Shown: piece by piece, positions 43,928 to 46,537 of the stretch | How the letters are laid out: each line of letters begins with the position of its first letter | How positions within the stretch are numbered: position 1 is the first letter of the stretch | From: Deltaproteobacteria bacterium | Lineage (GTDB): Bacteria; Desulfobacterota; DSM-4660; Desulfatiglandales; Desulfatiglandaceae | Reading direction: 5' to 3' | Assembly: GCA_016927455.1 (NCBI GenBank) | Contig: JAFGMQ010000035.1 | Location: forward strand, 1-46,537 | DNA: 46,537 nt | Program-made: the position numbers and the translations under genes | The notes under the pieces: generated by a model | Database searches by the model: none | What the model was told of the DNA's origin: nothing | Seen by the model: the letters and a program-made list of their open reading frames with translations, nothing else

Positions 43928-44434
43928 ATGAATACAGAGCAAAATACATTTTCAGAACCTTCTCATGCTCAGATAAAAGACCTTATTTATCAGATCCGCA
44001 GACTCATGCAGGCAGGATCGCTATACACGAAAGAATTGGACAGAAACTACAAGGTAAGCTCTCCTCAGCTTTCTTGCCTGATTGCCCTGTATGAGGCCGG
44101 CCCTCTTCCCCCCTCCCATATAGCCAGGTATATTATGGTTAAGTCCAGCACTGTAACGGGAATAATTGACAGGCTTGAGCACAAAGGTCTGGTAAGGAGA
44201 ACAAGGAATTCACCTGATCGCAGGGTAATCAATATTGAACTTACCGATAAAGGCAGAATGCTTGCCGAAAACGCGCCATCTCCCATTCAGCAGAAGATTG
44301 TGGATGGTGTTAAGCGTCTTCCCCGAAGAAAGATAGATGAGATTATTAAGAATATAAAATTGCTTACTGATATGCTGGATGATCAGGATTTTGACCTCGA
44401 CCAACCAACTGACGAATCTAAAATACCGCTGTAA
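43928..44434 (+). CDS. MarR-family transcriptional regulator
   Basis: This 168-residue winged-helix regulator has the MarR recognition helix region SSTVTGIIDRLEHKGLVRRTRNS and wing PDRRVINIELTDKGRML. The N-terminal and C-terminal helices form the dimer arm. It has a C-terminal acidic tail. It lies 196 bp before the corrinoid-linked genes on the same strand; a 17-bp palindrome sits in that gap at the likely promoter. It is the natural candidate regulator of those genes. Its ligand is unknown. AGGATG lies upstream of the ATG. Confidence 0.92.
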   Translation: MNTEQNTFSEPSHAQIKDLIYQIRRLMQAGSLYTKELDRNYKVSSPQLSCLIALYEAGPLPPSHIARYIMVKSSTVTGIIDRLEHKGLVRRTRNSPDRRVINIELTDKGRMLAENAPSPIQQKIVDGVKRLPRRKIDEIIKNIKLLTDMLDDQDFDLDQPTDESKIPL

Positions 44435-44501
44435 AACAATCAATATACCGCTCCTTCTTGTGGCAGGCCTAGGGGTTGCCATGATGAAGTAAAAAATCTC
44501 C

Positions 44502-44525
44502 GGTCAAAGGCCTGGTCAAAGGCCT
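44502..44525 (+). repeat. 12-bp tandem duplication abutting the -35
   Basis: GGTCAAAGGCCT occurs twice back to back (44502-44513, 44514-44525), with no mismatches. The final T is the first base of the -35 TTGACA. The position suggests paired binding sites for an activator or repressor, but a simple duplication is possible. Confidence 0.6.
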
Positions 44526-44553
44526 TGACAATTGGAGTTCTTTTATATATTAC
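44525..44553 (+). promoter_or_regulatory. Sigma70-like promoter for the corrinoid genes
   Basis: Perfect TTGACA (44525-44530), 17-bp spacer, TATTAC (44548-44553). Transcription would start near 44560, about 70 bp before the activation-domain gene. The palindrome at 44574-44590 then overlaps the early leader. Confidence 0.6.
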
Positions 44554-44573
44554 TTTCAGTGCAAAATAAAATT

Positions 44574-44590
44574 ATTGATAATATATCAAT
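44574..44590 (+). promoter_or_regulatory. 17-bp perfect palindrome, candidate MarR operator
   Basis: ATTGATA-ATA-TATCAAT is a perfect inverted repeat about 15 bp after the predicted transcription start. Its size, AT-rich half-sites and location suit a MarR-family dimer. The regulator gene ends 140 bp upstream. A small hairpin CTGAAA-N5-TTTCAG (44605-44621) follows just before the ribosome site. Confidence 0.5.
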
Positions 44591-44630
44591 TCAAGCCATA
44601 TGAGCTGAAAGTCTTTTTCAGAAGGAATTT

Positions 44631-45335
44631 ATGCAGAATACAGCTACTGAGAAAAATAATATTCTTTGCGACAGTGTTGACCTGTCGCTGATATTTGGCG
44701 GGAAGGAATCATCTCGATTTACCAATTTCATCAACAATAAATCGGATGATCTGTTCAGCATTTTCAACTCAATGATCGCCCCGAGATTATCCTACAGAAC
44801 TAACAGGATAACCTCGACTGCTTATGGAACCGTATGTTTTAATGGTTGCGTGGAATTAGAAAGTGTAAAGCTCTCAAAAGTTATGAATCATTGTGAAAGT
44901 GCAGTCTGTTTTGTAGCAACTATCGGGGGGAAGATTGAAAAAGAAATAGCCAGATTGACGAATGAAAATAGCCTCTTCGATGCATATATTCTCGATTCAA
45001 TGGGATCAATGGCAGTAGAAAAAATGGCTGAAGAGTTCTGGAAAGATATGCAGAAGAAATATTTCACAGAGGACAAGGGGATAACTCTTCGTTTCAGTCC
45101 TGGTTATTGTGACTGGCCAATTATTGAACAGAATAAATTGTTTCATCGACTTTTAGATGCACGACAAACAGATGTTACGCTTACAGATTCCTGTCTTATG
45201 AATCCGCGCAAGTCCATCTCAGGGCTATTTGGCATACACCCTTTCCGTACTGGAGATGGCCCTGTTTCTCCCTACAATCCTTGTTCTGATTGCAAGAAAA
45301 GGAATTGTTCCGAGAAAAGATTTTCTCCCAAATAA
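44631..45335 (+). CDS. Stand-alone vitamin B12-dependent methionine synthase activation-domain protein
   Basis: This 234-residue protein matches the MetH activation domain without the rest of MetH. RFSPGYCDWPIIEQ, with the SAM-contacting Arg and Tyr, and LTDSCLMNPRKSISGLFG are the diagnostic segments. In MetH this domain binds SAM and rescues cob(II)alamin by reductive methylation. Here it has a C-terminal extension NPCSDCKKRNCSEKR that could hold a metal or Fe-S site. AAGGAA lies before ATG 44631. The MttB-family gene follows after 44 bp, so it may reactivate that system's corrinoid protein, or serve a split MetH elsewhere. Confidence 0.88.
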   Translation: MQNTATEKNNILCDSVDLSLIFGGKESSRFTNFINNKSDDLFSIFNSMIAPRLSYRTNRITSTAYGTVCFNGCVELESVKLSKVMNHCESAVCFVATIGGKIEKEIARLTNENSLFDAYILDSMGSMAVEKMAEEFWKDMQKKYFTEDKGITLRFSPGYCDWPIIEQNKLFHRLLDARQTDVTLTDSCLMNPRKSISGLFGIHPFRTGDGPVSPYNPCSDCKKRNCSEKRFSPK

Positions 45336-45379
45336 TTTATAAAAAGCAGCAAAGGCCACATTAATAGAGGATATTACAG

Positions 45380-46537
45380 ATGAAATCAAAAATGGGGTTG
45401 CAGGGGGGACAGTATAAACCCCTTAATGATGATGAAATTGCACAAATTCATCAGACGAGTATCAGAGTATTCGAGGAGGTCGGAATTTCAGTAAGCCTTC
45501 CTGAGGCGCGTGAGCTTTTCCGTCAGGCCGGCGCGAATGTTGATGATTCGAACCGTGTTGTTAAAATATCTGCGGGGCTTTTAGAAACACTGATAGGTTG
45601 TGCTCCGGCTGTTGTTACCCTGTGTGGCCGGGGTGAAAACGATGAACTGGACTGTGAAATAGGTGGAAAAAAGGTCTATATGGGAACCGGCGGAACAGCA
45701 CTGAATGTCCAGGACCCCGGGGCAAATGATTCACGTCGAGCAACTCTCGAAGACATCATGGACATGGCCCGCCTTGTTGATGTTCTTGATAATATTCATT
45801 TTTTTATGCTTAATGTCTATCCGAATGAACTCTCCGCTAACGAGGTTGATGTTAATAGATTTGGAACAGCATTAAATTACACAAGAAAGCACATTATGGG
45901 GGGCGTCTATACCATTGAAGGGGTAAGGAATGTCATAAAAATAGCTGAATATATTGCGGGCAGCCCCGAAAAACTCAGGGAGCGACCGTTTATTTCGATG
46001 GTAACCTGCGTTGTAAGTCCCCTGCGGCTTGATGAACATTATTCGCAGCTTACCATCGAGGTGGCTCGCAACGGGATTCCTGTTGTGGTTCCGGCTGAAC
46101 CCCTGTGCGGCGCAACATCACCTGTTACACTGGCAGGGAACCTGGTTGTGCAGAATGTGGATACACTGGCAGGGGTAATGCTTGCCCAGCTCGCCAATCC
46201 GGGGTCTCCGACACTTTATGGCTCTGTCTCATCAATTGCAGATCTCAGGACACTGAAATACCTTTCAGGCGCGGTTGAAATGGGCCTCCTGAACGCCGCT
46301 GCAGCTCAAATGGCTCAATTCTATAAGCTTCCTTATTATGCAACTGCAGGCATGTCCGATTCGAAAATAAATGATGCCCAGGCAGGATATGAATCGGCCA
46401 TTACAAACCTGATGGTAGCACTCGCGGGCGGGAACTTTATCCACGATGCAGCCGGATTTCTCGAATTCTGCATGACAGCTTCCTACGACAAACTCGTGAT
46501 AGATAATGAAATTATCGGCATGGTAATGCGAGCTGTG
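45380..46537 (+). CDS. MttB-family corrinoid methyltransferase, partial (cut by window end)
   Basis: An ATG at 45380 (GAGG upstream) opens a frame that stays open for 386 codons to the window edge; no stop is reached. The protein resembles trimethylamine methyltransferase MttB: MGTGGTALNVQDP, RKHIMGGVY, the AEPLCGATSPVTLAGNLV segment, and AGMSDSKINDAQAGYE. Family enzymes demethylate quaternary or tertiary amines and methylate a corrinoid protein. No in-frame TAG occurs through the region (about residue 334) where archaeal MttB has pyrrolysine, so it is likely a non-pyrrolysine homologue, as in glycine betaine or proline betaine enzymes. The substrate is unknown. Confidence 0.9.
   Translation, partial: MKSKMGLQGGQYKPLNDDEIAQIHQTSIRVFEEVGISVSLPEARELFRQAGANVDDSNRVVKISAGLLETLIGCAPAVVTLCGRGENDELDCEIGGKKVYMGTGGTALNVQDPGANDSRRATLEDIMDMARLVDVLDNIHFFMLNVYPNELSANEVDVNRFGTALNYTRKHIMGGVYTIEGVRNVIKIAEYIAGSPEKLRERPFISMVTCVVSPLRLDEHYSQLTIEVARNGIPVVVPAEPLCGATSPVTLAGNLVVQNVDTLAGVMLAQLANPGSPTLYGSVSSIADLRTLKYLSGAVEMGLLNAAAAQMAQFYKLPYYATAGMSDSKINDAQAGYESAITNLMVALAGGNFIHDAAGFLEFCMTASYDKLVIDNEIIGMVMRAV

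Follow-up and report, generated by a model that had tools for sequence, protein, structure and literature searches.

The DNA window analysed here, 46,537 bases long, is the complete contig C258 of a 2.55-Mb genome that was assembled in 259 contigs and is 84% complete. Its last part carries three adjacent genes on the + strand, each with a Pfam match, in the order that an earlier note on this sequence had described: a MarR regulator, a free activation domain of the methionine synthase (MetH) type and an MttB-family methyltransferase. The first gene of the locus (43928..44434) encodes the MarR-family regulator, of 168 residues (PF01047, 3.6e-18). It is followed by the gene (44631..45335) for a 234-residue stand-alone MetH-type activation (AdoMet-binding) domain protein (PF02965), here called ACT, and by mttB1 (45380..46537), which encodes a non-pyrrolysine MttB-family corrinoid methyltransferase (PF06253, 9.6e-85). 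The mttB1 gene is truncated by the assembly, the contig stopping at 46537 after 386 residues. A near-palindrome at 44515-44529, a candidate MarR operator, was not found to be conserved in relatives; a promoter scan of the locus gave no more matches than expected by chance, and no plasmid similarity was found.

PF02965 is the sole Pfam match of ACT (45.0 bits, cut-off 25; E 1.2e-11), and the PF14574 ASKHA domain was not matched in the protein. ACT is predicted to adopt the MetH activation-domain fold: its AlphaFold model (pLDDT 91.1, pTM 0.86, from an alignment of 58 sequences) has 19 Foldseek matches in the PDB at E<=1e-3, every one of them a MetH activation domain. The best match in both structure and sequence is T. 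maritima TM0269 (PDB ID: 1j6r; Foldseek E 1.8e-12, HMM comparison 3.6e-13), which is likewise a free-standing activation domain. TM0269 serves a split MetH (TM0268), whereas the partner of ACT is predicted to be the corrinoid protein of an MttB system. The activation domains of E. coli and T. thermophilus MetH (1msk, 6bm5, 8sse) show the same fold and the same RxxxGY motif, but they are part of MetH, while ACT is a separate, shorter protein with a C-terminal CxxCxxxxC tail.

The RxxxGY motif of ACT, R154-F-S-P-G-Y159 (45090..45107, + strand), aligns with that of E. coli MetH (1msk), Tyr159 corresponding to Tyr1139. This tyrosine is reported to be universally conserved in MetH, where it is required to keep the Co(II)/Co(I) potential within reach for reactivation (PMC10567725); from its conservation and its reported role we infer that ACT uses SAM. 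The tail, C218-x2-C221-x4-C226 (45282..45308, + strand), may be a metal or Fe-S ligand site. It is missing from ACT proteins that adjoin MetH, and the alignment with 1j6r, which extends to residue 207 of 214, leaves no space for such a tail in TM0269. The conservation of both elements is firmly established: across 80 ACT sequences, neither RFSPGYCD nor the tail residues C218, C221, C226 and R230 vary, and the tail is present in 79 of 79 related ORFs. The tail that had been singled out as an extra of this protein is real but not peculiar to this gene, as it marks most stand-alone activation-domain proteins outside a MetH partnership.

The frame of MttB1 contains no in-frame TAG or other stop over 45380-46537, and the Met of its AGMSDSK motif (codon 46352-46354) stands in the alignment where the solved trimethylamine (TMA) methyltransferase has pyrrolysine, which bears out the absence of pyrrolysine noted earlier. 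MttB1 scores 377.6 bits against TIGR02369, below the cut-off of 525. The closest solved structures are the TMA methyltransferase 7xcl, D. hafniense 2qne and the glycine betaine methyltransferase 9yce; MttB1 is about equally near the D. hafniense MtgB-type structures and the TMA methyltransferase (264 bits each).

The same genome encodes exactly two PF06253 genes, one PF02607 corrinoid protein and one RACo. Profile searches of the 84%-complete assembly found no PF02574 gene (the MetH Hcy domain), and no CODH/ACS CdhD match was found in it except for the pterin enzyme of the operon described here. This enzyme, a methyl-THF:corrinoid methyltransferase (305.5 bits against NF005719, cut-off 259), is encoded on contig C137, a piece of 3859 bases that starts 26 bases upstream of its gene and continues with genes for MttB2, the corrinoid protein and an Asn-synthase-like protein, the last being cut by the other contig end (L004:2-538, - strand). 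The corrinoid protein is nearest to the NCBIfam MtgC models, with scores under their cut-offs. In three related genomes (G058, G047 and G017) the order ACT, MttB1, pterin enzyme, MttB2, corrinoid protein, SAM methyltransferase, Asn-synthase-like protein is found in one run, in G058 with a MarR gene upstream of ACT. Judged by this synteny, C137 is very probably the continuation of the C258 operon, so that the corrinoid protein, which had been expected past 46537, can be placed there; the set of MttB, corrinoid protein and methyl-THF methyltransferase that is complete in relatives would here be divided between the two contigs.

A scan of genome contigs for the locus yielded 80 named loci in Desulfobacterota, Nitrospirota and Chloroflexota; they were picked for their resemblance to the ACT proteins of four operons, and the sample is biased accordingly. 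The operon is well established as a unit. In 65 of the 76 loci whose ACT gene is uncut by a contig end, MttB1 follows ACT directly and in the same orientation; in seven more a MetF gene is inserted between them. The four exceptions (L063, L077, L100 and L104) show either different corrinoid neighbours or none beside ACT. The recurrence of the ACT-MttB1 order in three phyla indicates that the neighbourhood first noticed in the window is not a product of chance. Of 79 related loci, 23 have a MarR gene upstream of ACT in the same orientation and 9 have one in the opposite orientation. The carriers are sediment sulfate reducers, Nitrospirota and Dehalococcoidia, and include the cultured Desulfatitalea alkaliphila and Desulfoferrobacter suflitae.

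Genes for OpuAC-type binding proteins of importers are close to the operon in 14 of the 80 loci, and suggest that the substrate of the operon is a quaternary amine; one of these binding proteins, that of L035, was checked against Pfam (PF04069, 4.5e-65). Downstream of the operon in Desulfurivibrio sp. AMeS2 lies a homocysteine methyltransferase gene (L268:5543-7834, a frame of 764 residues) with a weak MetF match (45 bits), an arrangement reminiscent of marine MtgBCDE, for which a dual role in glycine betaine and methionine metabolism has been reported.

Two further proteins belong to the operon. The SAM methyltransferase (420 residues; L036:5896-7158 and homologues) occurs in most operons, with a mean column identity of 70% and an invariant core. 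No NCBIfam family was matched by it, and a fold search returned generic class I methyltransferases, which carry no indication of the substrate. The Asn-synthase-like protein has lost the glutaminase Cys2, and starts with MAGIA, MSGLV, MASIA or MAAIA (C137, L034, L036, L043, L056, L113 and others); ordinary MCGIA copies sometimes adjoin it. The replacement of Cys2 suggests an amide or lactam ligase that works with another amine.

Reactivation of oxidised cobalamin is a bottleneck for corrinoid methyltransferases. MttB-type systems are considered to require ATP-driven activators of the Ram/RACo kind, and reactivation with SAM is associated with methionine synthase. The arrangement found here makes it likely that ACT repairs the corrinoid protein of a MarR-regulated methyl-transfer operon by SAM-dependent reductive methylation. 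That such a domain might serve an MttB system had been proposed in the earlier note, and the proposal gains support from the conserved operon with its two MttB proteins, pterin methyltransferase and corrinoid protein, the chemistry being inferred from the motif. The operon would read (MarR)-ACT-MttB1-methyl-THF:corrinoid methyltransferase-MttB2-corrinoid protein-(SAM methyltransferase)-Asn-synthase-like protein. MttB1, MttB2 or both would most likely take a methyl group off a methylated amine, quaternary or other, and load it onto the corrinoid protein, from which the pterin enzyme would hand it to tetrahydrofolate. Upon accidental oxidation of Co(I) to Co(II), ACT would dock on its presumed partner, the corrinoid protein, and bind SAM at the RxxxGY site, and the cobalt would be remethylated with one electron from a putative low-potential donor. 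The reaction would be the reductive methylation of the MetH/TM0269 type carried out in trans, for a stand-alone corrinoid protein instead of MetH.

The MtgB/MtgC/MtgA glycine betaine system of Desulfitobacterium and Methanolobus shares with this operon an MttB-family enzyme, an MtgC-like corrinoid protein and a methyl-THF:corrinoid methyltransferase. It differs in that the operon described here has two MttB-family proteins, a SAM methyltransferase and an Asn-synthase-like protein, and in that the activator within the operon is a MetH-type domain rather than Ram or RACo. The ATP-dependent activators RamA, RACo and AE would have the same task as ACT, bringing corrinoid Co(II) back to the active state, but they are ASKHA ATPases with Fe-S and have an unrelated fold. 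Ram-type activators have been reported from several settings. For Desulfovibrio and Phaeobacter, Price et al. (2018, PMC5764234) ascribe the reactivation of B12 to RamA-like proteins; they also report that the PF02965 domain can occur as a separate protein. A 2025 study gives RamA a part in the demethylation of glycine betaine by marine bacteria (PMC12478193), and in a methanogen glycine betaine system the activator is RamM (PMC6855144). The literature covered, which was mostly non-subscription, was searched for MttB combined with a MetH activation domain or with asparagine synthase, and for PF02965 itself. No description of the present arrangement was found, and its novelty is provisional to that extent.

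From 395 genomes of the phylum, sampled without such bias, 105 stand-alone ACT sequences were obtained and sorted by their neighbours. The 13 ACT proteins of MttB operons all have the Cys tail, and 12 keep RxxxGY. The 17 that lie beside a MetH without activation domain have RxxxGY and no tail; three further rows labelled MetH belong to other types. Near RACo, RxxxGY is lost in 17 of 18 ACT proteins and the tail is kept in all 18. Another 22, of which 18 keep RxxxGY, adjoin UroD-type, pterin or corrinoid genes but no RACo, and 32 have no recognised neighbour. In a tree built after removal of the motif and tail columns, the MttB type is separated from the MetH type, from a UroD-corrinoid type and from a motif-less 'PGSLDW' clade of 36 sequences. 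Across the tree, RxxxGY changes about five times and the tail twice.

The motif-less relatives that carry the CxxCxxxxC tail and adjoin RACo (L223, L228, L237, L238, L248, L250, L251, L253-L255, L259, L262 and others) are possibly an unrecognised partner of RACo. RACo adjacency was considered as independent evidence of motif loss, for which the counts are strong (17/18 against 1/13 in MttB operons) but phylogenetically clustered; an independent-pairs test was not significant and, with only about five motif changes, the association is a clade-level pattern. Triplets of a UroD-type methyltransferase, a corrinoid protein and an RxxxGY-bearing ACT were also observed (L203, L220, L236, L241-L244, L247 and L249; in L241 only the corrinoid partner is within reach), and may represent the same idea of reactivation in a second corrinoid system.

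The presence of RACo in the source genome raises the question of which protein restores the corrinoid. The gene is complete (C214:10939-12810, L038; PF14574) and solitary, its neighbours being a histidine kinase gene and a peptidase-like gene; contig C214 carries no corrinoid gene. RACo is encoded in 13 of 17 operon genomes, the source genome among them, and the genome has one PF02607 corrinoid protein and no other RACo partner that was found, so that RACo may well serve this protein. In that case RACo would reduce the corrinoid Co(II) to Co(I), with ACT acting as an accessory (a SAM-gated docking or base-off factor) or as a back-up repair. Such a division of labour would agree with the characterised MttB-type systems consulted here (PMC6855144, PMC12478193), which use activators of the Ram/RACo type, and with the RACo-adjacent sister clade, which suggests that the fold can cooperate with RACo. 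It is nonetheless unlikely: four of the 17 genomes lack RACo, among them CP070704 (G061), a single-contig 2.5-Mb MAG chromosome with the operon and AcsC/AcsD-type proteins; RACo is never inside the operon (two distant RACo labels among the 80 loci, on the opposite strand); and the operon ACT has the complete RxxxGY that the RACo-adjacent sister proteins have lost. Reductive methylation by ACT may then be the main route of repair rather than a back-up beside RACo.

The direction of methyl transfer could also be reversed. The operon would then be biosynthetic, with methyl-THF, the product of MetF, charging the corrinoid protein and MttB methylating an acceptor, while the SAM methyltransferase and the Asn-synthase-like protein complete the product; ACT would still repair the corrinoid. 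The MetF genes between ACT and MttB1 fit this arrangement, as do the conserved SAM methyltransferase and the Cys2-less Asn-synthase-like protein. On the other hand, many copies have MarR and OpuAC-type importer genes next to them, which suits a substrate-induced catabolism, and the known MttB-family enzymes in PMC12478193 are demethylases. We consider a biosynthetic operon distinctly improbable.

The earlier note had offered as its own alternative that ACT serves a split MetH encoded at another place in the genome and lies beside mttB by chance. Stand-alone domains of this kind do exist, as in T. maritima TM0269 (Huang et al. 2007, as cited in PMC7857596), and the tail-less ACT beside MetH is common in the phylum. 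A similar ACT in G062 adjoins a homocysteine S-methyltransferase (a PF02574 protein) and that of L077 a core-MetE-like gene, two cases that also count against a role of ACT in MttB repair. However, no PF02574 was found in 10 of the 17 operon genomes checked, which include the source genome, single-contig MAG chromosomes, D. alkaliphila and D. suflitae. Where a MetH without activation domain is present (about 808-844 residues in Eth-SRB1, MLS_D and UBA6252; G070, G071 and G073), it has its own tail-less ACT directly beside it, with RFSAGY in G070 and R[FY]SAGY in G071 and G073, in addition to the tailed ACT in the mttB operon; the operon variant of MLS_D and UBA6252 is the nearest to that of the window. 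Together with the separate clades on the tree and the gene order repeated across three phyla, this makes service to a split MetH very improbable, and chance adjacency to mttB is rejected because MetH has its own ACT in these three genomes and no PF02574 was found in 10 of 17. Co-occurrence in relatives links the tailed ACT to mttB, and the combination held to speak against such a link, a RamA-like activator next to the operon and a metH lacking its activation domain, is not what the source genome shows: RACo is on C214, and no metH was found in the 84%-complete assembly.

Since PF02574 and PF01717 are both missing from many operon genomes, the operon was also considered as an unrecognised methionine synthase, which is unlikely, as no zinc thiol-methyltransferase is recognised in the canonical operon and MesB may escape PF01717. 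Neither PF02574 nor PF01717 (MetE/core-MetE) was matched in the operon genomes G000, G017, G063, G065-G068, G072 and G074; this may be explained by MesB-type synthases, MesB being the sole methionine synthase reported for the related genera Desulfatiglans and Desulfobacca (PMC7857596). PF02965 alone undercounts ACT proteins, and single-copy counts built on it were left out of the evidence. The MetH-adjacent stand-alone domain of Eth-SRB1 (L087:4121-4750) was missed by this profile, and automated annotation probably misses many such domains.

Beyond the repair of this operon by ACT, the census allows a wider and more tentative reading, to which we give somewhat less than even weight. MetH-type activation domains might be a general corrinoid toolkit of anaerobes, the tail-less proteins serving split MetH, the tailed proteins with the SAM motif serving MttB and UroD systems through reductive methylation with SAM, in which the Cys tail would provide a metal or electron site within the protein itself, and the tailed, motif-less proteins partnering RACo. 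If true, the MttB version would be the first case in which the corrinoid protein of an MttB system is activated with SAM and without ATP. MetH-type reactivation itself is known; its predicted application to an MttB system would be new.

The conserved genes, found in anaerobic bacteria of at least three phyla, suggest an MttB system that is repaired with SAM, either in place of the ATP-driven activator normally used or alongside it. The finding also draws attention to the operon itself, which is conserved in sediment sulfate reducers, Nitrospirota and Dehalococcoidia. RxxxGY and the Cys tail would provide a sequence signature that predicts the reactivation route of an organism, and the retention of the operon across three phyla suggests that the ATP-driven and the SAM-dependent reactivation chemistries have been exchanged in evolution.
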